Shown here piece by piece: positions 9,761 through 35,857 of a stretch of DNA of 44,596 nt. The DNA is taken from IMG/VR virus record IMGVR_UViG_3300028920_000120, positions 1 to 44,596 of that record; one strand, given 5' to 3'. The notes under the pieces were generated by a model, which worked only from the letters and a program-made list of their open reading frames with translations, did not search any database and had not been told where the DNA came from. The DNA comes from a virus. Both the position numbers and the translations under genes were made by a program. Numbering within the stretch: the first letter of the stretch is position 1; every line of letters starts with the position of its first letter.

Positions 9761-9798
9761 CAAAAAGGAAGGTAGGGGACATAAGTCCCCACACCTTC
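9761..9798 (-). terminator. Intrinsic terminator or attenuator after the 9806-10600 gene
   Basis: On the minus strand GAAGGT pairs with ACCTTC and GGGGAC with GTCCCC around a TTAT loop, with only small bulges. CTTTTT follows directly. The position, eight bases after a stop codon and before a fresh ribosome site, fits a partial terminator that lowers expression of downstream late genes relative to capsid. Confidence 0.65.
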
Positions 9799-9805
9799 GT
9801 TAAAA

Positions 9806-10600
9806 TTAAATACTGATTTGCAACATAATCAACGGCCCGGCAATACCACCACCAGAGGCAGTATCACAGTTCAGTATAAAACCCGCTGGCTGCGCTTCGA
9901 CCTTTGAAGTAATTGCATACTCAACCAAACCACCAGTCGTCCCTTCGTAGGAAAAATAAGTCATCATTTCCCCGGCAGCAGGGTCATCAATGGTTGAATT
10001 GGTAGGACTGATATAAGCAGGGCCGTATGTCTGGCCCCAATACTTATGTCCCGCAGCCGCCGAATTTGCTGGAACGCAAATGACAGGACAAATACCCGTT
10101 CCGTGAGCCTTCGTTTCTCTGTAAGGATTTTCAAAGACTTCACAGTGGTCAGAAGTAGTCGTCGTAACAGGCAATGGACTGTCAATATAAACAGTAGTCA
10201 CTGTTGCTGTGTCATTATTTCCAACAATACCGAAAAGATAGGTCGTTGTTGTCGCACTGTTATCTTCTATCATAAGATAACCACCGGCAAGGTCATTCGT
10301 TGTACGACTTCCTAATGTAATAACCTGCTTTAGTTCACCGGCATTGTTAGCCGATGGAAGTGCTGTCCATGAAACAGCCGCGTTTTCGTAAGCATGTGCT
10401 CCCCAGTAACTATATACCTGAGCTACGGCATTGCAATATTTATAAACACGCCCGTCCCATGTAATGAAACGAGTGCCATAAACAAATCTCTGAGTAGTAT
10501 CATCCGTATAGATACCGAGATTATAGTCTCCCGTCTTATCTAAAGGACTGCTAATCCATTTCAGAGGCCCATTTGGTAATGTAAAATTATTTGTACTCAT
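9806..10600 (-). CDS. Abundant-type virion protein next to capsid (264 aa)
   Basis: The 264-residue protein follows the capsid gene with its own strong ribosome site (AAGGAGTTACAA) and is followed by a terminator hairpin. This arrangement often marks highly expressed head proteins. The sequence is beta-rich: GDYNLGIYTDDTTQRFVYGTR appears near the start (split by turns), WDGRVYKYCNA follows, and the central part is rich in Thr and Asn. The C terminus GGGIAGPLIMLQISI looks like an assembly strand. It probably stabilises or decorates the head. No named family is recognised. Confidence 0.55.
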   Translation of the reverse strand: MSTNNFTLPNGPLKWISSPLDKTGDYNLGIYTDDTTQRFVYGTRFITWDGRVYKYCNAVAQVYSYWGAHAYENAAVSWTALPSANNAGELKQVITLGSRTTNDLAGGYLMIEDNSATTTTYLFGIVGNNDTATVTTVYIDSPLPVTTTTSDHCEVFENPYRETKAHGTGICPVICVPANSAAAGHKYWGQTYGPAYISPTNSTIDDPAAGEMMTYFSYEGTTGGLVEYAITSKVEAQPAGFILNCDTASGGGIAGPLIMLQISI

Positions 10601-20885: not shown

Positions 20886-21083
20886 ATGATTGCTTACGTG
20901 GCACAACAAACAAAGGACAAAAAAGGATATACAGTTTACAGAATGGTTGACGCTGGACGCCCGATTCCGTTAGCTTTTCATCCTACGGATTGTAGAGTAT
21001 TTAAGACTTTTGATGAAGCAAACAAGGCTGCGGAATTTATGGCAAGTGAATCAAAGACAATAAAATATGTTAATATGAGATAA
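20886..21083 (+). CDS. Small hypothetical protein, first of the rightward operon (65 aa)
   Basis: The ATG at 20886 follows GAGGTGAAAAA. The 65 residues start MIAYVAQQTKDKKGYTVYRM and end in FDEANKAAEFMASESKTIKY, an alpha/beta layout of the small early proteins that bind host factors. No family is recognised. The base composition is more AT-rich than the late genes. Confidence 0.55.
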   Translation: MIAYVAQQTKDKKGYTVYRMVDAGRPIPLAFHPTDCRVFKTFDEANKAAEFMASESKTIKYVNMR

Positions 21084-21084
21084 G

Positions 21085-21138
21085 AATCATCAGGGCCGGG
21101 CTGGCTTGATTGCAATAATAACTTTTATTTGAAAGGAT
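21085..21138 (+). promoter_or_regulatory. Repeated leader element L1
   Basis: ATCA plus GGCC pairs with GGCT plus TGAT around GGGCT. The core CAGGGCCGGGCT recurs at 21630 and 22070. A 3' segment (CTGGCTTGATTGCAATAATA, then an AU-rich stretch and AAAGG) is shared with the leader at 21381-21410. Confidence 0.5.
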
Positions 21139-21143
21139 ACGGC

Positions 21144-21314
21144 ATGTTTTACGATATAGTTTATTCCCCAGATGACGGCGGATATTATTGTGTTTGCTAC
21201 GATGAACACGCTGTCGAGCATTTTGTTACTGATGTTTATCCGACCAAACAACAAGCTGAAAATGCTGTTGTGGAACTTTACAAAAACCCTATCAAAGTAA
21301 ATAATATAGACTAA
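21144..21314 (+). CDS. Small hypothetical protein (56 aa)
   Basis: The ATG at 21144 is chosen because AAAGGATACGGC lies at the correct distance. The 56 residues start MFYDIVYSPDDGGYYCVCYD and continue with EHAVEHFVTDVYPTKQQAE, an alpha/beta minidomain with an Asp/Tyr-rich start. No family is recognised. It resembles the first gene in size and in the KxAExA helix near the end. Confidence 0.5.
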   Translation: MFYDIVYSPDDGGYYCVCYDEHAVEHFVTDVYPTKQQAENAVVELYKNPIKVNNID

Positions 21315-21322
21315 TCTATTCC

Positions 21323-21390
21323 CGGATACGGTAAATTCAAGCCAGTCTGGTCACCTCTGATAGCCGTATCCGATAGCTGGGCTGGCTTGA
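21323..21390 (+). ncRNA. H-type pseudoknot in leader L2
   Basis: CGGATACGG (21323-21331) pairs with CCGTATCCG (21364-21372), 9 bp. From the loop TCAAGCCAG (21337-21345) pairs with CTGGCTTGA (21382-21390), 9 bp. Both helices are perfect. The ribosome site of the next gene follows at about 21414. Confidence 0.65.
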
Positions 21391-21424
21391 TTGCAATAAT
21401 AACTTTTATTTGTGAGGTGAAAAA

Positions 21425-21619
21425 ATGAAAACATTAACAATCCAAATTACAACAGACAATGCCGCCTTTGACGGCGAAAACGAATCGCTTGAAGTAGGCC
21501 GAATATTGGTGAATCTGGCTCATTACTTTGAATTGCCAGAGAGCTTGCCTGACGATGGCCTTAATCGGGTTATCCGTGATATTAACGGCAATACTTGCGG
21601 TTATTACGAATGTCACTAA
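21425..21619 (+). CDS. Small conserved MGE-type protein (64 aa)
   Basis: The 64 residues contain ITTDNAAFDGENESLEVGRI, LVNLAHYFE and IRDINGNTCGYYE. The TTDNAAF...EVxRIL...L...RDxNGNxxG pattern is a common small protein in phages and integrative elements with unknown function. It starts after GAGGTGAAAAA, identical to the site of the first gene of the operon. Confidence 0.6.
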   Translation: MKTLTIQITTDNAAFDGENESLEVGRILVNLAHYFELPESLPDDGLNRVIRDINGNTCGYYECH

Positions 21620-21626
21620 CTAAAAC

Positions 21627-21690
21627 CCTCACGGCCGGGCTATACGTAGCCTGTGCCTTGTAGGCTTTATTAACTTTTATTTGAAAGGCG
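21627..21690 (+). promoter_or_regulatory. Repeated leader element L3
   Basis: GGCTA-TACG-TAGCC forms a hairpin with a UNCG-type loop. TAGCCT can instead pair with AGGCT further on, so two hairpins are mutually exclusive. About 50 bases are nearly identical to L4. An AU-rich tract and AAAGG follow. Confidence 0.55.
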
Positions 21691-21695
21691 ATAAA

Positions 21696-22061
21696 ATGAA
21701 TATGGGATATAAATATAAATCGGGCGACAAACAAGTCAAAATAGATATAGAGAATGGTACGGCCTGCCATAAGAACAAAATGAGTTTGCGTAGCTATTTC
21801 TTTCGTGCCGAACTTACCAGCGGAATGATTTTAGCTTTTTACTCTGATTCACCGTGGGGCCGTTGTCACGATATGGAAAAAGGATGGGTTATTATCGACC
21901 CAAAACGCAAATGTATTCTTGAAGAAGTAGCAACGCGCTCGATGGGTGAGGCTACCGGCGACTATAAAGACTGGATAGCCGATATTCACAAGCAATATGG
22001 CAAGACCAAAAAAGTTTTCCGTGATGAATCTGGGAAATGTTTATGGAAAATGGAAGAGTAA
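21696..22061 (+). CDS. Hypothetical early protein (121 aa)
   Basis: The ATG at 21696 has AAAGGCGATAA upstream. The 121 residues have MGYKYKSGDKQVKIDIENG, SYFFRAELTSGMILAFYSD and KGWVIIDPKRKCILEEV. This suggests a beta-rich single domain, perhaps a host-takeover inhibitor, but no family is recognised. It is the largest gene of the rightward operon and lies between the two near-identical leaders L3 and L4. Confidence 0.55.
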   Translation: MNMGYKYKSGDKQVKIDIENGTACHKNKMSLRSYFFRAELTSGMILAFYSDSPWGRCHDMEKGWVIIDPKRKCILEEVATRSMGEATGDYKDWIADIHKQYGKTKKVFRDESGKCLWKMEE

Positions 22062-22063
22062 AA

Positions 22064-22125
22064 CCCTCAGGGCCGGGCTATACGTAGCCTGTGCCTTGTA
22101 GGTTTTATTAACTTTTTATGAAAGG
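22064..22125 (+). promoter_or_regulatory. Repeated leader element L4
   Basis: Nearly identical to L3, including GGCTA-TACG-TAGCC. The base change C to T in AGGTT keeps pairing with AGCCT through a G-U pair. AAAACC at the start can also pair with GGTTTT at the end. Confidence 0.55.
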
Positions 22126-22133
22126 GTAGAAAA

Positions 22134-22355
22134 ATGAAAACACGTAATCAAATTTCTCGGAAAAAAACAAAACTTAAACGCCGTCTTATATCAATGGCAC
22201 GCCAAAAAGGTATATGGGAAAACTTCGGCAACAAAGAAATGCAAGAGTTGGACGAATTTATTGGTGATAAGTATCAATATCCGTATGAATTAAGACTATG
22301 GATTGAAACTCTTGTTTCAGATTTTTTTAATTGGTGCATAAACTATCATATTTAG
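22134..22355 (+). CDS. Small basic helical protein (73 aa)
   Basis: The 73 residues start MKTRNQISRKKTKLKRRLIS, strongly basic, followed by an acidic helix (NKEMQELDEFIGDKY) and an aromatic end (DFFNWCINYHI). No recognised motif. It could bind nucleic acid or the host transcription or ribosome machinery. Confidence 0.45.
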   Translation: MKTRNQISRKKTKLKRRLISMARQKGIWENFGNKEMQELDEFIGDKYQYPYELRLWIETLVSDFFNWCINYHI

Positions 22356-22369
22356 TCATTTTTCACCCT

Positions 22370-22396
22370 GCCCCCTGTGCGTAATCCGGGGGGCTT
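22370..22396 (+). terminator. Terminator-like attenuator
   Basis: GCCCCC and GGGGGC pair around about 13 bases and TTTTT follows. The next ribosome site (GGAGG) starts right after the T run, so it would act as a partial terminator between the fifth and sixth genes. Confidence 0.65.
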
Positions 22397-22412
22397 TTTG
22401 GAGGTAAGGATT

Positions 22413-22640
22413 ATGAGGTTATTAGATAATTTGCAATACGGCTGGGCTTATCCACGCAAAGCCAAAAAAGCACACTATTTTAATAAAACAGAAAACGGTC
22501 GAGATGTTTCTGCTTGTGGAAAATATTCTATTGGTTGGACAAACGGCAAAGCATATATACCAATTTCTGTATTTGGCCATGAAAAGGAAATGTGTAAAAA
22601 ATGTCTTGAAACATATAATTTAACTAAACTCACGGCCTGA
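22413..22640 (+). CDS. Zinc-binding small protein (75 aa)
   Basis: The ATG at 22413 is preceded by GGAGGTAAGGATT. The 75 residues contain KAHYFNKTENGRDVSACGKY and KEMCKKCLETYN. The HxF...SxCG...CxxC set is a recurring small zinc domain in phage and actinobacterial proteins. It follows an attenuator, so its level may differ from the upstream genes. Confidence 0.55.
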   Translation: MRLLDNLQYGWAYPRKAKKAHYFNKTENGRDVSACGKYSIGWTNGKAYIPISVFGHEKEMCKKCLETYNLTKLTA

Positions 22641-30450: not shown

Positions 30451-30642
30451 TCATTCACCTTTGAATAACCTCATATCTTCTTTATAATCGTCTTGGTCGT
30501 TATTAAATCGGTAGCCTTCGTATTCCTCGATTGTCACAAAGTTGCAGTTCCCACCCATTGAGCATTGCCGCAGGCGCGGGTAGCCCCGGTAATCATATTC
30601 ATCTGCCCCCAAGCCACATTCAGTACAGACATAATCGTTCAT
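30451..30642 (-). CDS. Small cysteine-containing protein (63 aa)
   Basis: MNDYVCTECGLGADEYDYRG begins with a CxxC and continues with RLRQCSMGGNCNFV, so four cysteines may bind zinc. It is acidic at the end. ATGA overlap with the upstream gene. The function is unknown. Confidence 0.5.
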   Translation of the reverse strand: MNDYVCTECGLGADEYDYRGYPRLRQCSMGGNCNFVTIEEYEGYRFNNDQDDYKEDMRLFKGE

Positions 30643-30854
30643 TTTATTCTCCCTACTTGTGTTATGGGATTTTTCTTCTTTCCGATAACAATAGATGCCT
30701 CAAGTGTTTTATTATTATAAGCATCAACATAAATCCCTCGCAATTCTTTTGTTTTGTTGATACCCAACCTAACTAATTGGATTGTTTCTTCTTTATTTTC
30801 AGGTTCTAAATTAATATTAAAACAACCATTGTATTCGGCGAATTGAACTTTCAT
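30639..30854 (-). CDS. Hypothetical small protein after the structured RNA (71 aa)
   Basis: AGGAGAATGAA precedes the ATG at 30854. The 71 residues start MKVQFAEYNGCFNINLEPEN, then SIVIGKKKNPITQVGRIK. No family is recognised. It is the first ordinary gene downstream of the large structured tract. Confidence 0.5.
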   Translation of the reverse strand: MKVQFAEYNGCFNINLEPENKEETIQLVRLGINKTKELRGIYVDAYNNKTLEASIVIGKKKNPITQVGRIK

Positions 30855-30931
30855 TTCATTCTCCTATAAAAGTGGCGGCAGTCCGTTGAAAAAAAGGTAA
30901 ATTCCCAGAAGTTTTCTAAATCAAAATTCAT
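30851..30931 (-). CDS. Short leader ORF 2 (26 aa)
   Basis: Starts MNFDLENFWEFTFFSTDCRH and ends in ATGA at the next gene start. The ribosome site GAAAGAGACTACA is moderate. It lies inside a region closed by an inverted repeat. Confidence 0.35.
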   Translation of the reverse strand: MNFDLENFWEFTFFSTDCRHFYRRMK

Positions 30932-30999
30932 TGTAGTCTCTTTCGCATACAAGAAATAAATCTTTTCGGCCCTGTTCCATAGCCAACGCTCCGCCACTT
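30870..30999. repeat. Inverted repeat closing a domain over two short ORFs
   Basis: AAGTGGCGG (30870-30878) and CCGCCACTT (30991-30999) are perfect complements 112 bases apart. The enclosed stretch carries two overlapping short frames. Confidence 0.6.
30921..30980 (-). CDS. Short leader ORF 1 (19 aa)
   Basis: MEQGRKDLFLVCERDYNEF follows GGCGGAG at a suitable distance and ends by overlapping the 26-residue frame (ATGAATTTTGA). It contains no known motif. Confidence 0.3.
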   Translation of the reverse strand: MEQGRKDLFLVCERDYNEF

Positions 31000-31013
31000 A
31001 TTCACTTGTCAAA
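30999..31013. repeat. Direct repeat, copy 1 (15 bases)
   Basis: TATTCACTTGTCAAA, identical to 31118-31132. Both copies are linkers between helical domains of the structured tract. Confidence 0.8.
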
Positions 31014-31014
31014 T

Positions 31015-31120
31015 ATATGCGGGGCAGGGTTGTAATCCCTGAAACCTTAACGGATTTAGTGTAGCCTATAGCTACGACCGCAAGGGTGCGGTAACGACTC
31101 CGCTCGTCAACCCCGCATAT
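31015..31120. ncRNA. Domain A of the structured RNA (multi-helix junction)
   Basis: ATATGCGGGG (31015-31024) pairs with CCCCGCATAT (31111-31120). Inside are hairpins CAGGG/CCCTG with a 7-base loop (31025-31041), GTAGC/GCTAC (31061-31075), ACCGCA/TGCGGT (31077-31092) and ACGA/TCGT (31094-31107): a five-helix junction. Confidence 0.6.
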
Positions 31121-31132
31121 TCACTTGTCAAA
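31118..31132. repeat. Direct repeat, copy 2 (15 bases)
   Basis: TATTCACTTGTCAAA, identical to 30999-31013, linking domain A to domain B. Confidence 0.8.
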
Positions 31133-31171
31133 CAGAATGGGGCTACAGGGTTATCCGTAACCCCGATTCTG
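31133..31171. ncRNA. Domain B of the structured RNA (hairpin)
   Basis: CAGAAT (31133-31138) pairs with ATTCTG (31166-31171). Inside, GGGTTA-TCCG-TAACCC is a 6-bp hairpin with a UNCG-type loop. GGGG/CCCC pairing is a competing alternative. Confidence 0.55.
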
Positions 31172-31179
31172 CGGAGGAA

Positions 31180-31249
31180 GAGTGATGATTTGCTGTGCCC
31201 GGTTCAATCATTCTAATATGTGCTACCGGCAAGCGAATCCTTCGCACTC
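31180..31249. ncRNA. Domain C of the structured RNA (pseudoknot)
   Basis: Closed by GAGTG/CACTC (31180-31184, 31245-31249). ATGATT (31185-31190) pairs with AATCAT (31206-31211), and CCGGT (31199-31203) in its loop pairs with ACCGG (31225-31229). A GCGAA/TTCGC hairpin (31233-31245) competes for the last base of the closing helix. Confidence 0.5.
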
Positions 31250-31262
31250 CTTTAGTTTTCAA

Positions 31263-31384
31263 AAGGCCGAGCCTGTGCAGGATTTCAACCTGATTTGATA
31301 GCCTGCTCTACTGGTCGCGCTATCAGGAAACCCAGTAGTTTGCAACGTTCCCGCGTGTTCGCACCACGCCGACAGGCTCGCCTT
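31263..31384. ncRNA. Domain D of the structured RNA (pseudoknot)
   Basis: AAGGC plus GAGCCTG (31263-31275, one bulged base) pairs with CAGGCTC plus GCCTT (31373-31384). TGATAGC (31296-31302) pairs with GCTATCA (31319-31325), and CTACTGG (31308-31314) pairs with CCAGTAG (31332-31338): a tight H-type pseudoknot with 4-6-base loops. Hairpins CAGG/CCTG (31278-31292) and GCGTG/CACGC (31353-31369) flank it. Confidence 0.6.
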
Positions 31385-31387
31385 AAA

Positions 31388-31470
31388 ATGCCAGCAGGCA
31401 GGATAAGCACGTATGCTGTTATCTAAAATGCTTATCCCTCGACCACAGCATAATAAGCCGCTGCTGGCAT
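31388..31470. ncRNA. Domain E of the structured RNA (pseudoknot)
   Basis: ATGCCAGCAG (31388-31397) pairs with CTGCTGGCAT (31461-31470). GGATAAGCA (31401-31409) pairs with TGCTTATCC (31429-31437), and TATGCTGT (31412-31419) with ACAGCATA (31445-31452). All three helices are perfect. Confidence 0.65.
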
Positions 31471-31477
31471 ATTTTAT

Positions 31478-31576
31478 AAAGCTCCGGGCAGTTCGGGGGA
31501 TTCCCTTCGAGTAGCCCTGCGGTAACTGCAAACCTTCTCCGATTTGTAACGGTGGCTACAACGCCGCCGGAGCTTT
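31478..31576. ncRNA. Domain F of the structured RNA (pseudoknot)
   Basis: AAAGCTCCGG (31478-31487) pairs with CCGGAGCTTT (31567-31576). GCAGTT (31488-31493) pairs with AACTGC (31524-31529), and GTAGCC (31511-31516) with GGCTAC (31554-31559). Confidence 0.6.
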
Positions 31577-31582
31577 TGTTTC

Positions 31583-31654
31583 AATGAAGGCGGGATTGGA
31601 GAAAACTATGCGTCTGCTATTGGAGGTTAGGGCTGTTGATGTCCCGCCTTCGTT
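31583..31654. ncRNA. Domain G of the structured RNA
   Basis: AATGAAGGCGGGA (31583-31595) pairs with TCCCGCCTTCGTT (31642-31654), 13 bp with one T-G on the plus strand. The 46-base interior repeats TTGGAG, with no clear inner helix. Confidence 0.55.
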
Positions 31655-31668
31655 GGAGGCTGTATTAA

Positions 31669-31714
31669 GTTTTCAAGAGAGCTACTTCTTAGCCAGTTCT
31701 TTGGCCTTGAAAAC
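31669..31714. ncRNA. Domain H of the structured RNA, overlapping a 12-codon ORF
   Basis: GTTTTCAAG (31669-31677) pairs with CTTGAAAAC (31706-31714). On the minus strand one arm is the start of a 12-codon reading frame and the other lies just after its stop, the arrangement of a translation-dependent switch. Confidence 0.5.
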
Positions 31715-31720
31715 GACCAT
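31682..31720 (-). CDS. Leader peptide candidate (12 aa)
   Basis: AGGTGAGATT precedes the ATG at 31720, the same site used by the two ordinary genes upstream. The frame reads MVVFKAKELAKK and stops before the structured tract. Ribosome movement over it would disrupt domain H. Confidence 0.45.
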   Translation of the reverse strand: MVVFKAKELAKK

Positions 31721-31735
31721 AATCTCACCTAAAAA

Positions 31736-31957
31736 TCAGGGGTTAGAACTATCATTCAACTCTTTTAGCTTTGTAGGTTTATCACTCCATAATTTGATAA
31801 TAGCCACTAACCATATAATCGCCAGAAATGTCACCAAAATTCCAAGTCCAAAACCGTTTAATGTTAATTTATCAGCTAACAAATATAATGATATTGTCAA
31901 ACTTAATGGCAATCGCGTAGGCAAATCTAATCTATCTACAACTTTTTTCTCTTTCAT
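31736..31957 (-). CDS. Small membrane protein (73 aa)
   Basis: The 73 residues start MKEKKVVDRLDLPTRLPLSL and contain hydrophobic helices (TISLYLLADKL and FGLGILVTFLAIIWLVAIIK). AGGTGAGATT precedes the ATG. No family is recognised. It may affect the host membrane. Confidence 0.5.
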   Translation of the reverse strand: MKEKKVVDRLDLPTRLPLSLTISLYLLADKLTLNGFGLGILVTFLAIIWLVAIIKLWSDKPTKLKELNDSSNP

Positions 31958-31978
31958 AATCTCACCTTGTATCAGGAG

Positions 31979-32320
31979 TTAGCTTTCAATTAAAACCCAT
32001 TTTTTTGAACTCAATACTTTTTCTTTGTTGCTATTATCTCCAAAAATATACCATCCTTCTGTATTTGTAGGTGGATTTGATTCTAATCTAAGAATCAAAG
32101 GTGTGCAGTGTATTAAATTATCTATGTTATTTATTAAGGTATTCCAAGTACCTTTACCTATGATTCTCATCCCACCCAAATAACCATAAGGGTTTATGAC
32201 TATAGTTAAAGGCATATTTTCAATTTCGGTCTCTCCGCAATCTAAACCTATTTCTCCAAAAAATAGAGCTGGGCCGTAACCAATTTTTTTAACACCATTA
32301 ATAAATTCTTTTATTCGCAT
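31979..32320 (-). CDS. Hypothetical protein (113 aa)
   Basis: The 113 residues start MRIKEFINGVKKIGYGPALF, with IENMPLTIVINPYGYLGGMR and GWYIFGDNSNKEKVLSSKKW. It is a beta-rich single domain of unknown family. AAGGTGATATT precedes the ATG and the upstream 36-codon frame stops inside this ribosome site, so its translation may depend on the leader pseudoknot. Confidence 0.5.
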   Translation of the reverse strand: MRIKEFINGVKKIGYGPALFFGEIGLDCGETEIENMPLTIVINPYGYLGGMRIIGKGTWNTLINNIDNLIHCTPLILRLESNPPTNTEGWYIFGDNSNKEKVLSSKKWVLIES

Positions 32321-32589: not shown

Positions 32590-33087
32590 TTAAAATTCTT
32601 TATAATCCAGACATATCTTTTTAGAATTTTCCAATGGTATGCAAAAACCAATGCTTGTATCAGTTTTTACCCTATACAAAAACGGCGGGTCAAGATTATC
32701 CAACCAAACAAGATACTTTTTTGAAAATATGAACCATATCGTATAATCTCCGATAAGATATAATTTTGTATTGTCTTGACGATATATTCCACTTCTGACA
32801 TAAACAGAGTTTTCCTTGAATTTTTTTTCGTCTGTTTCTATGTATATCCGTCCCGAAAAGCAGTAAGTATATATCTTGTCATCAAATTTTATTTCTATTC
32901 CTTCTTGTGTTTCCCCAGTAAATTGGTCTTTTTCTGTTACAAAAAAATTCAATTCCCTTTTGCGCAGCCCACCATTATATACTTGTGGATATTTGAACTT
33001 TACCCATTCTTCGTATTCTTTACCTTTTTGCCATCCTTCATTATTATCACCGTACTGCGGGGTCGTTTCCATAAATAATCCATCCAT
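32590..33087 (-). CDS. Putative nuclease paired with the MT-A70 methyltransferase (165 aa)
   Basis: The ATG at 33087 has GGAAGGG eight bases upstream. An earlier TTG is not needed. Residues include EGWQKGKEYEEWVKFKYPQV, then GIEIKFDDKIYTY, an ExK signature with a following strand as in PD-(D/E)XK folds, and GDYTIWFIFSKKYLVWL. Overlap with the methyltransferase gene by 41 bases suggests a functional pair, for instance restriction-modification. The catalytic Asp is not obvious, so this is tentative. Confidence 0.4.
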   Translation of the reverse strand: MDGLFMETTPQYGDNNEGWQKGKEYEEWVKFKYPQVYNGGLRKRELNFFVTEKDQFTGETQEGIEIKFDDKIYTYCFSGRIYIETDEKKFKENSVYVRSGIYRQDNTKLYLIGDYTIWFIFSKKYLVWLDNLDPPFLYRVKTDTSIGFCIPLENSKKICLDYKEF

Positions 33088-34018
33088 CGACTTTTTCCCT
33101 TCCAAATAATTCCAATTTCTTGCTATTTGGGTACATCTTTTCTATTAACTTTCTAAAGTACTCTGGTTTTTCACTATGCTTAGAACTACGTTCTATTGAT
33201 ACAACACTATCGTGTAATGTCTTATCTTGAGGTAAGAAAGAACCTCTTGTGCATACCAATAAAAATTCATGCCGAACAGAATTGTAATGTCCATAATTAT
33301 GCTGAATTTTATCCCATACAAAAGATGTTTTATATTCAAATCCCCAAGCCTTAATAACATCCCAACACTCTGCCAGTAAAGGACTTGTAACCCACAAAAA
33401 AAGAACAGAATTAACATATGTTAACTGAGATACAGGAAGGTTACACAACTCATTTATAGACATAGAAGGATAATGGTGTTTAACTGCTCCATAACCTTCA
33501 ATAAGGTCATCTCCGTATTTCCAAGGCGGGTCGGCATAAATAACATTAAACTTGCCCTTAGGTAATTCAGGTGTTTCAGGCTTAGGTTTTGCTTTTTGTA
33601 TCGCTTTTAATACTTGTTGTCGGACTGGCACTTCTCCTTTCTCTCTGGCTTTGGAAATAACCTGAGCAATAACCTTCTCGTTGCGGTGTAGCTCCTGTGC
33701 GTAGTGGCTCTGCTTCTTGTCGATACCTTCGGGCAAAGTTTCTTGACCGTGGACTTTTCCGTCCGGGGTTCTTCTGCGGGAACTCCGGTCTTGCTTTTCC
33801 AGCATTTCTCCCAGGCGTGCCTCGGCATACAAAAGATATTCGGCAGTATCTTGTGTGTTTTCAAGTGCAGCTTGATAACCTGCCATACTTTCATTAATAC
33901 GCTTAGCTGCTTTTAATGCTGATATACGGGAATGTAGTTTTTCTTTATTAAATAATAACCACTTATTCAATTCTTCTGGCTTGGCAGGTAGATTTGAAGG
34001 TCTTTTAACTATACTCAT
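33047..34018 (-). CDS. MT-A70 family DNA N6-adenine methyltransferase
   Basis: The ATG at 34018 is chosen for AAAGGG seven bases upstream. The N-terminal half (about 150 residues) is helical (AEYLLYAEARLGEMLEKQDR, SHYAQELHRNEKVIAQV) like ParB-related linkers fused to this family. The catalytic half has VIYADPPWKYG (DPPW about 163-166), LFLWVTSPLLAECWDVIKAW and KPEYFRKLIEKMYPNSKKLE with LFGR. It would methylate adenine in phage DNA. First gene after the early promoter. Confidence 0.8.
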   Translation of the reverse strand: MSIVKRPSNLPAKPEELNKWLLFNKEKLHSRISALKAAKRINESMAGYQAALENTQDTAEYLLYAEARLGEMLEKQDRSSRRRTPDGKVHGQETLPEGIDKKQSHYAQELHRNEKVIAQVISKAREKGEVPVRQQVLKAIQKAKPKPETPELPKGKFNVIYADPPWKYGDDLIEGYGAVKHHYPSMSINELCNLPVSQLTYVNSVLFLWVTSPLLAECWDVIKAWGFEYKTSFVWDKIQHNYGHYNSVRHEFLLVCTRGSFLPQDKTLHDSVVSIERSSKHSEKPEYFRKLIEKMYPNSKKLELFGREKVDGWIIYGNDPAVR

Positions 34019-34038
34019 ATCCAATCCCTTTCAATAAG

Positions 34039-34101
34039 GCCCCAAAGAAGCGTGTTGGTATAAGAAATGGTGCTTCTCTGGGGCATAATGACTATACCAA
34101 C
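34039..34101 (-). ncRNA. 5'-terminal H-type pseudoknot of the early minus transcript
   Basis: On the minus strand GTTGGTATA (34101-34093) pairs with TATACCAAC (34062-34054). GCCCCAGAGAAGC (34084-34072) from the loop pairs with GCTTCTTTGGGGC (34051-34039), 13 bp with one G-U (A-C on the plus strand). Two bases separate the 3' arms. The predicted transcript starts at about 34102, i.e. at the first base of stem 1. Confidence 0.7.
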
Positions 34102-34108
34102 AAATATA

Positions 34109-34136
34109 AATATATCAATATTGAAAAGATTGTCAA
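34109..34136 (-). promoter_or_regulatory. Early minus-strand promoter
   Basis: TTGACA (34136-34131), a 16-base spacer, and TATATT (34114-34109). Its -35 box directly follows the T run of the late terminator. Confidence 0.7.
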
Positions 34137-34615: not shown

Positions 34616-35857
34616 CTATCCTGCAAAAACCCGGTTTATTATTTTTTTATTCAATCTTATAACTTCAGCTTCAAGAGCTTCTACTCTATCTTCTAAAAAC
34701 GCCCATGCCAGAGTTGTAGTGGTAGTGGTGGTAGTGGTAGTGGTGGACGTAGTTGTTGTCGTGGTCGTCGTTGCAACCGTAGTAGTCGTAGTTGTAGTCG
34801 CAACCGTTGTTGTGGTGGTTGCTACTGTCGTGGTGGTCGTAGTAGCCACTGTCGTTGTAGTCGTGGTGGCAATGGTAGTCGTCGTGGTTGTCGCTATTGT
34901 GGTAGTTGTAGTCGTGGCAATAGTCGTTGTAGTAGTCGTAGCTACAGTGGTCGTGGTCGTTGTTGCGATGGTGGTAGTTGTAGTCGTTGCTATCGTTGTT
35001 GTTGTGGTCGTCGCCACCGTAGTCGTGGTTGTAGTAGCGACTGTTGTAGTCGTAGTGGTTGCTACTGTCGTAGTGGTTGCTATTGTCGTAGTGGTTGCTA
35101 CTGTCGTAGTGGTTGCTATTGTTGTAGTGGTTGCTATTGTCGTAGTGGTTGCTATTGTCGTAGTGGTTGCTATTGTCGTAGTGGTTGCTATTGTCGTAGT
35201 GGTTGCTACTGTTGTAGTGGTTGCTACTGTTGTAGTGGTGGTAGTTGTAACCGCTTCCTGCAAATCAAGATTCTCAATATCGACAGATTCGTTTTGGTAA
35301 TTTTGCCCGTCTCCCTGACTCTGACCGGCATATACATGCCTGTAGCTCGGTGCACTGTTTCCCGTCGCCGAAATTGTATCATGTGTAGAACCGGAATGAC
35401 TGCCTGTTCTGATAGTAACGGTTATTGTGTTTGTACTTCTCGCTATGGTGACATAATATTTAGTATCTTCCGAAAGGCCGATTGAAGTGTCCGAATCAAT
35501 TAAAGAGCCGCCCTCGTATATGTATATCTCGAATATATAATACTCGCTGCTGGAGTAGCGCTGCTTTAACAGTATAAAATCATCGGAAGCACTTATACAG
35601 GCGGCTACATCGTTACCTCCGGTTGTTTTTACCAATGAGTAGCATGAGAAATGCCCCCAGTTAGATAAATGGCCTCTCGGCGTCAGTTCGATTCGATGCG
35701 AAAAATTACCGCTAAAGTGATTTGCACCTTTGTCATCATACAACCACGCTTCATCCAGTTCATCGCAGGCATCTACGTCATTCTTGTTGGCGGTAATTGT
35801 GAAAACGCCAACGTCACCGCCACCGGAAGTATAAGTTGTAAAATCTTCGTAGGCCAT
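34616..35857 (-). CDS. Fibre-like protein with LamG-like head, Thr-repeat stalk and coiled-coil end
   Basis: The 413 residues have three parts. Residues 1-200 form a beta-sandwich resembling concanavalin/LamG domains common in phage proteins (NHFSGNFSHRIELT, SIGLSEDTKYYVTIARS, HVYAGQSQGDG, IENLDLQ). Residues about 204-375 are nearly pure Thr with Ala-Val or Ala-Ile every 6 or 8 positions, mucin-like. The end LAWAFLEDRVEALEAEVIRL is a coiled-coil that would trimerise. The start is coupled to the glycosyltransferase-methyltransferase gene. The stalk is an obvious target for O-glycosylation. Confidence 0.65.
   Translation of the reverse strand: MAYEDFTTYTSGGGDVGVFTITANKNDVDACDELDEAWLYDDKGANHFSGNFSHRIELTPRGHLSNWGHFSCYSLVKTTGGNDVAACISASDDFILLKQRYSSSEYYIFEIYIYEGGSLIDSDTSIGLSEDTKYYVTIARSTNTITVTIRTGSHSGSTHDTISATGNSAPSYRHVYAGQSQGDGQNYQNESVDIENLDLQEAVTTTTTTTVATTTTVATTTTIATTTTIATTTTIATTTTIATTTTIATTTTVATTTTIATTTTVATTTTTTVATTTTTTVATTTTTTIATTTTTTIATTTTTTVATTTTTTIATTTTTTIATTTTTTIATTTTTTVATTTTTTVATTTTTVATTTTTTTVATTTTTTTTSTTTTTTTTTTTLAWAFLEDRVEALEAEVIRLNKKIINRVFAG
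34717..35250. repeat. Coding minisatellite (18- and 24-base units)
   Basis: Tandem units encode ATTTTI/V (18 bases) near the N-terminal side and ATTTTTTI/V (24 bases) nearer the C terminus, with a 21-base unit in between. Base changes between units are mostly at third positions. Confidence 0.85.

Follow-up and report, generated by a model that had tools for sequence, protein, structure and literature searches.

To our knowledge, few tRNA-like RNAs act outside translation, namely tmRNA, the bacterial Y RNA YrlA and the 3' ends of plant viruses. The pseudoknots of tmRNA are located between its D- and T-arm. A G-U pair at position 3-70 is the identity element for alanine. A tag-less tmRNA form from phage DS6A inhibits the tmRNA of the host (PMC11915505), and YrlA is a tRNA mimic that has D-, T- and acceptor-like arms without a decoding anticodon arm (PMC8394870). 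Phage tRNAs counter host defences that rely on tRNA-targeting nucleases (PMC10264068, PMC11555353), and the phage RNAs GOLLD and ROOL are often found near tRNA islands (PMC12286853).

The phage RNA family described here resembles tmRNA in its acceptor, D-arm and T-arm, in ending at the acceptor and in having a pseudoknotted insert in place of the anticodon arm. However, the family gives no tmRNA match with Rfam or ARAGORN, no conserved tag frame was noticed, its acceptor sequence varies freely (G3-U70 is rare) and its inserts are unrelated between members. It shares with the DS6A form that it is a phage-coded, tRNA-like RNA. Like YrlA, it has tRNA-like arms and lacks a decoding anticodon arm, but the ends of YrlA form a basal Ro60-binding stem whereas the family ends at the acceptor, and a TROVE/Ro60 gene was found in none of 50 carrier contigs. 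Acceptor, T-arm and elbow pair are shared with phage tRNAs, beside or within arrays of which some members lie, yet the family has no anticodon arm. Finally, the tract analysed below is phage-borne and pseudoknot-rich as are GOLLD and ROOL, which in contrast are single RNAs of several hundred nucleotides with conserved folds of their own.

The tract occupies positions 31000-31714 of the window, by which we mean the whole stretch of DNA analysed, a 44.6-kb virus record of a podovirus-like phage that encodes a major head protein, a terminase and a head-tail adaptor. Nearly all likely genes of the window are on the minus strand, and the tract is flanked by two small minus-strand genes (30639-30854 and 31736-31957). 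Two mechanically called open reading frames overlap it, one of 90 aa (31259-31531, minus strand) and one of 132 aa (31584-31982, plus strand); we found no evidence that either is a gene, and agree with an earlier note on this DNA that the tract is non-coding.

Elsewhere in the window, a strong H-type pseudoknot with helices of 8, 6 and 10 bp lies at 34029-34126 (minus strand), directly upstream of the start of a DNA methyltransferase gene (33047-34024, minus strand; we take the protein to be MT-A70-like), and stops just short of the ribosome-binding site of that gene. It looks like a 5' UTR regulatory element and has no match in Rfam. The stretch 34616-35857 (minus strand), adjoining methyltransferase- and glycosyltransferase-like genes, encodes a 413-aa protein with a long repeat tract that is rich in threonine and of low complexity. 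A short run of small plus-strand genes at 20886-22640, against the orientation of the remaining genome, has repeats resembling GGGCTATACGTAGCC between its genes; L002, a related contig, has a block of small genes that looks similar.

We resolved the tract and its immediate border into the following features, where domain numbers count the helices of the earlier note.

30870-30999, minus strand: unit I, a weak unit, AT-rich inside, closed by the helix AAGTGGCGG/CCGCCACTT (30870-30878/30991-30999)
31000-31013, minus strand: leader repeat TTTGACAAGTGAAT, second copy, preceding unit I
31015-31120, minus strand: unit H (domain 1), cloverleaf-like in minus-strand folding, with a 10-bp acceptor (31015-31024/31111-31120)
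31119-31132, minus strand: leader repeat TTTGACAAGTGAAT, directly before unit H
31133-31171, minus strand: unit G (domain 2), a long hairpin (31133-31138/31166-31171), terminator-like on the minus strand
31177-31252, minus strand: unit F (domain 3), a short acceptor-like helix (31180-31184/31245-31249), GU-extended on the minus strand only
31263-31384, minus strand: unit E (domain 4), a full tRNA-like RNA of about 109-122 nt by its match to model R1
31372-31380/31268-31276, minus strand: acceptor of unit E, 9 bp, extendable beyond a bulge
31353-31371, minus strand: D-arm of unit E, CGGCGTGGTGCGAACACGC
31294-31352, minus strand: insert of unit E, containing an H-type pseudoknot (31308-31314/31332-31338 with 31296-31302/31319-31325)
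31277-31293, minus strand: T-arm of unit E, TCAGG-TTGAAAT-CCTGC, with 4 of 5 T-stem pairs
31388-31470, minus strand: unit D (domain 5), a 10-bp outer helix (31388-31397/31461-31470) followed by CGGC
31478-31576, minus strand: unit C (domain 6), a 10-bp outer helix (31478-31487/31567-31576) followed by CGGCG
31582-31655, no strand assigned: unit B, a 13-14 bp hairpin (31582-31595/31642-31655, 13 of 14 paired) whose wobble pairs favour the plus strand
31669-31714, no strand assigned: unit A, the last helix of the earlier note, a 9-bp hairpin (31669-31677/31706-31714)

The earlier note had read the tract, taking the plus strand, as one large ornate RNA built of eight chained helical domains, four of them with H-type pseudoknots; it pointed to GOLLD and ROOL and left membership open. 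All eight helices are present in the sequence, with some coordinates adjusted, and that of unit I is a ninth beyond the coordinates given there. The crossing helices within 31296-31338 (7+7 bp), 31401-31452 (9+8 bp) and 31488-31559 (6+6 bp) were confirmed, as was a shorter one at 31185-31229 (5-6 bp). That so many helices exceed chance also proved right: the tract contains 32 perfect stems of at least 6 bp, where 500 dinucleotide shuffles have 15 on average, and the best nested-pseudoknot scores, from three separate domains, were 67, 59 and 57, the highest score among 500 dinucleotide-shuffled versions of the tract being 58. Folding z-scores were -5.4 for the plus strand and -4.6 for the minus strand (20 shuffles each). 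Since both strands fold stably, folding by itself cannot decide between them. A 14-nt direct repeat, ATTCACTTGTCAAA, is present at 31000 and 31119. TTGACA within this repeat was considered as a promoter and dropped, there being no matching -10 box downstream.

The strand was instead indicated by covariance models from other phages. Model R1 was built from 36 other loci with the window left out, and in a cmsearch of the 44.6 kb it gave a single match, at 31270-31378 on the minus strand (38.3 bits, E=9e-8; the tool itself describes E-values from such models as rough), while ordinary tRNAs scored about 15-23 bits in comparable model searches. A wider model, R2, was run unfiltered on 30800-31800, so that its E-values refer to a 1-kb search. 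It matched unit D (31391-31467, minus strand, 15.0 bits, E=0.0047) and unit C (31481-31573, minus strand, 13.7 bits, E=0.0086), whereas all plus-strand matches scored at most 3.2 bits. Units besides E, D and C scored at most 4.7 bits, the value of unit I (E=0.75). Thus the central domain, and the next best domains too, are placed on the strand opposite to that assumed in the earlier note; its structured, non-coding phage RNA of chained, pseudoknotted domains stands, but the single large plus-strand RNA is not supported. Nor is kinship with GOLLD and ROOL: Rfam release 15 yielded no match, whether gathering thresholds or permissive filters were applied, the GOLLD, ROOL, OLE, HEARO and raiA models finding nothing in the window at gathering thresholds and nothing relevant in 30800-31900 with permissive filters. 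Neither the Rfam tRNA and tmRNA models nor ARAGORN, run for tRNA and tmRNA, matched the window.

Unit E very likely belongs to the tRNA-like family and is encoded on the minus strand. There, domain 4 reads CGAGCCTGT-CGGCGTGGTGCGAACACGC-...-TCAGGTTGAAATCCTGC-ACAGGCTCG, a plan that matches the RNA of the related contig L096 described below, and its D-arm is identical in six other phage members. A stretch of unit E that could be read as a tag frame (GCA AAC TAC TGG ...) was dismissed, as inspection by eye found none in other members. In unit D, a 9-bp arm abuts the 3' acceptor strand and its loop ACAGCAT pairs with ATGCTGT after the CGGC; in unit C, the arm GCAGTT/AACTGC abuts the 3' acceptor strand and its loop GGCTAC pairs with GTAGCC after the CGGCG. 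In topology, we read these crossing helices as a predicted contact between D-loop and T-loop that is lengthened to 6-7 bp. Unit H folds with a D-arm-like element, a 6-bp/4-nt arm, a variable-like arm and a 5-bp/7-nt arm of sequence CAGGG-ATTACAA-CCCTG that directly adjoins the 3' acceptor strand; the T-loop of the unit is non-canonical. This folding, rather than a model score of its own, is suggestive of a tRNA-like RNA. The helix of unit F encloses two crossing helices, CCGGT/ACCGG and AATGATT/AATCATC. The leader repeat also directly precedes tRNA-like members of other phages (L196/L096, L137 and L185). Taken unit by unit, the analysis suggests a graded tRNA-like identity, shown for E, supported for D and C and suggested for H, and membership is clear for E and weak for D and C, with six of the nine units unclassified. 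The tract as a whole is probably a series of short tRNA-like RNAs arrayed in tandem on the minus strand, within a run of genes.

Proteins of the window retrieved 50-odd related virus contigs, and in one of these, L096 (G042), an RNA was found by following a small blastn match. On its coding strand, a leader, TTGACAAGTGAATA, is followed by GGGACGG-CGGCGTGTGTGAAACGC-...-GCAGGTTAGACTCCTGT-CCGTCCC, which we read as an acceptor stem with a motif resembling a D-arm and, next to the 3' acceptor strand, a T-arm. Neither INPHARED phages nor PLSDB plasmids nor 50 related virus records gave a convincing blastn match to the tract itself. When the relatives were scanned for gaps and pseudoknots, the top matches were coding repeats or unrelated hairpins, and a leader-pair pattern scan of IMG/VR returned unrelated repeats only. 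A scan of IMG/VR for CGGCGTGTGNGAAACGC yielded 71 stretches, and strict acceptor and T-arm criteria left 50 distinct sequences, one of them from a single GTDB genome match. When the D-stem was left open (CGGCNNGGACGGTGACNNGC, NN/NN), 15 members were recovered, all 15 with a complementary D-stem, while none of 51 non-complementary matches had an acceptor and T-arm. With the D-arm type of the window, 105 stretches were found, and 68 of the 82 readable matches were full members. In total the family comprises 133 copies, 124 of them distinct, from uncultivated phages, all family counts being inflated by kinship among the sequences. Members elsewhere are about 70-245 nt long, and 49/49 carrier contigs that were re-searched with the model gave a match. 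Apart from two ARAGORN calls (L161 and L199), ARAGORN and the Rfam tRNA model miss the family, and the Rfam tmRNA models do not match it either. Thus this phage tRNA-like family is absent from Rfam, and we found no description of it in open PMC texts.

Some variants deserve separate mention. A member in L180 (1450-1589, minus strand) has a further acceptor-like helix with its T-arm, ATTTAGT...GCCGGTTCAAATCCGGT-ACTAAAT, inside its insert, one tRNA-like RNA being nested within another. A subtype with an insertion in the T-loop and the conserved sequence GCAGG-TAGCGGGT...GCCAAT-CCTGC, carried by L139, L141, L142 (8931-9121), L156, L164 (8636-8776), L172 and L179, is possibly a second class of the family. 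In L096, a 14-bp outer helix that encloses a pseudoknot (9790-9910) lies beside the tRNA-like member at 10008-10197.

The carriers are uncultivated IMG/VR phage contigs, together with one contig from a Planctomycetota genome bin; as 2 of 392 Planctomycetota genomes gave a match, some hosts may be Planctomycetota, although the indication from these sequences is weak. At the sensitivity reached with full-member and short D-arm queries, no members were found in cultured phages, and candidates from Halorubrum HSTV-2, a faecal scaffold and Aurantimonas AmM-1 failed the family model. Canonical tRNAs are found near members in L153, L171, L141, L152 and L201, and some members are part of phage tRNA arrays. 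No conserved partner gene was found beside members; the neighbours are generic phage genes, by sequence ATPase, helicase, portal-like and methyltransferase-like proteins, each at no more than 7 of 66 loci.

The acceptor and T-stems of the family covary strongly. The selection criteria favour paired acceptor and T-stems, and the fraction of paired positions is therefore no evidence, whereas compensatory changes are. Among 36 members, changes on both sides were compensatory in 7/7 acceptor pairs and 4/5 T-stem pairs, and the covariation score was 0.59, whereas shuffles gave 0.14 and slid partners no more than 0.09; covariation was also computed on 73 members. T54 and A58 of the T-loop were present in all of the first 50 members. 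Furthermore, one variable D-loop position tracks T-loop position 56, a pairing that played no part in member selection. The two positions are Watson-Crick in 98/118 members, with all four pair types represented (73 G-C, 14 T-A, 8 A-T and 3 C-G), against a shuffled mean of 60 and a maximum of 76 in 20,000 shuffles; in a dereplicated set the count was 51/67, against a shuffled mean of 28 and a maximum of 41. We take this pair to be the tRNA tertiary pair G19-C56. Unit E has it in its rarest form, a D-loop C with a T-loop G56, and its acceptor, D- and T-arms should form a tRNA elbow.

The region between D- and T-arm behaves differently from this scaffold. Inserts range from 20 to about 200 nt and have no common motif. 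Among 124 inserts, 4 have a 5-bp/7-nt anticodon arm following the D-arm and 4 have one preceding the T-arm, with shuffled means of 2.6 and 3.5. Helices tend to stop 2-3 nt short of the T-arm, as in 51 and 47 of 121 inserts compared to about 19 expected, and inserts fold just slightly more stably than shuffles (mean z -0.64). Judged from its members' sequences, the family replaces the anticodon arm with ever-changing inserts. The contigs L135 and L199 have a common scaffold and flanks that are 89% identical over 1.4 kb per side, yet the inserts, of 57 and 39 nt, resemble each other no more than shuffles do. Conversely, L357/L396 and L325 have a 48-nt insert that is 98% alike on different acceptors and T-arms, and L195, L329, L382 and L397 have one insert in common on two D-arm types. 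At the level of sequence, these cases show that inserts are exchanged among members.

We consider the best explanation of the locus to be an array of tRNA-like RNAs that act as non-decoding mimics of tRNA or tmRNA, with a probability of roughly one half. Because the ends lie at the predicted sites of RNase P cleavage and 3' maturation and the RNAs retain the elbow but have no arm for decoding, they would be seen as tRNA and could not decode. The units would be transcribed as part of a phage transcript and excised by host tRNA-maturation enzymes that read the acceptor and T-arm. The excised units would then mimic tRNA or tmRNA without decoding, and would occupy or divert host factors that recognise the elbow and acceptor; candidate targets are tRNA-targeting defence nucleases or the tmRNA/SmpB rescue pathway, and the exchangeable insert would determine which factor is caught. 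The precedents of the tag-less DS6A RNA and of phage tRNAs in counter-defence favour a decoy of factors that handle tRNA or tmRNA. A decoy mechanism with the insert setting specificity is proposed tentatively. Several observations weigh against the explanation as a whole: a single clear member among nine units, the plus-strand preference of hairpin B, the lack of a recurrent partner gene beside members, the slight stability of the inserts and the unpaired fifth position in the T-stem of unit E. Among possible functions, decoys of tRNA- or tmRNA-binding host factors rank as likeliest, and trans-acting RNA cassettes are ranked close behind.

The latter correspond to a reading in which the tRNA-like part is a handle for maturation and stability and the insert is the effector, acting in trans as an antisense RNA, aptamer or protein ligand. 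A scaffold that is constant across 124 distinct members, inserts that differ wholly between contigs whose flanks are 89% identical and near-identical inserts on scaffolds with other acceptors, D- and T-arms would all be in line with it; the wide range of insert lengths and the absence of a common motif argue against it, and we regard it as somewhat unlikely. Far less probable are divergent tmRNAs that still perform trans-translation. The common plan of acceptor, D- and T-arm, a helix beside the T-arm and a pseudoknotted insert would suit them, and both tmRNAs lacking a tag and a short form from a phage are known (PMC11915505), but Rfam and ARAGORN detect no tmRNA, an SmpB gene was found in 0/50 carrier contigs (a host copy could serve) and G-U occupies position 3-70 in only 6/133 copies. 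A single plus-strand RNA of the GOLLD/ROOL type would account for a tract of about 700 nt that is pseudoknot-rich and strongly folded; given the lack of any Rfam match, the placement of unit E on the minus strand by an independent model and the short members found elsewhere, it is highly improbable. Equally so are decaying or intron-bearing phage tRNAs, which would fit members within phage tRNA arrays, since acceptor, T-stem and D-loop/T-loop pairs are maintained by compensatory change and anticodon arms that follow the D-arm or precede the T-arm are no commoner than by chance.

If the reading as non-decoding mimics is true, a widespread phage family with the elbow kept, the anticodon lost and the insert exchanged would represent a novel type of RNA in counter-defence or regulation. 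Since tRNA finders and Rfam overlook the family, it has gone without annotation in phage genomes. We would cautiously envisage a modular system, in which a constant, non-decoding tRNA-like chassis bears RNA cassettes that are swapped between phages, several of them arrayed in this phage as a repertoire against tRNA-based defences or ribosome rescue. L135 and L199 and the pairs with shared inserts make this modular idea directly testable, and as cargo of a natural chassis the inserts may report how the host handles tRNA during infection.
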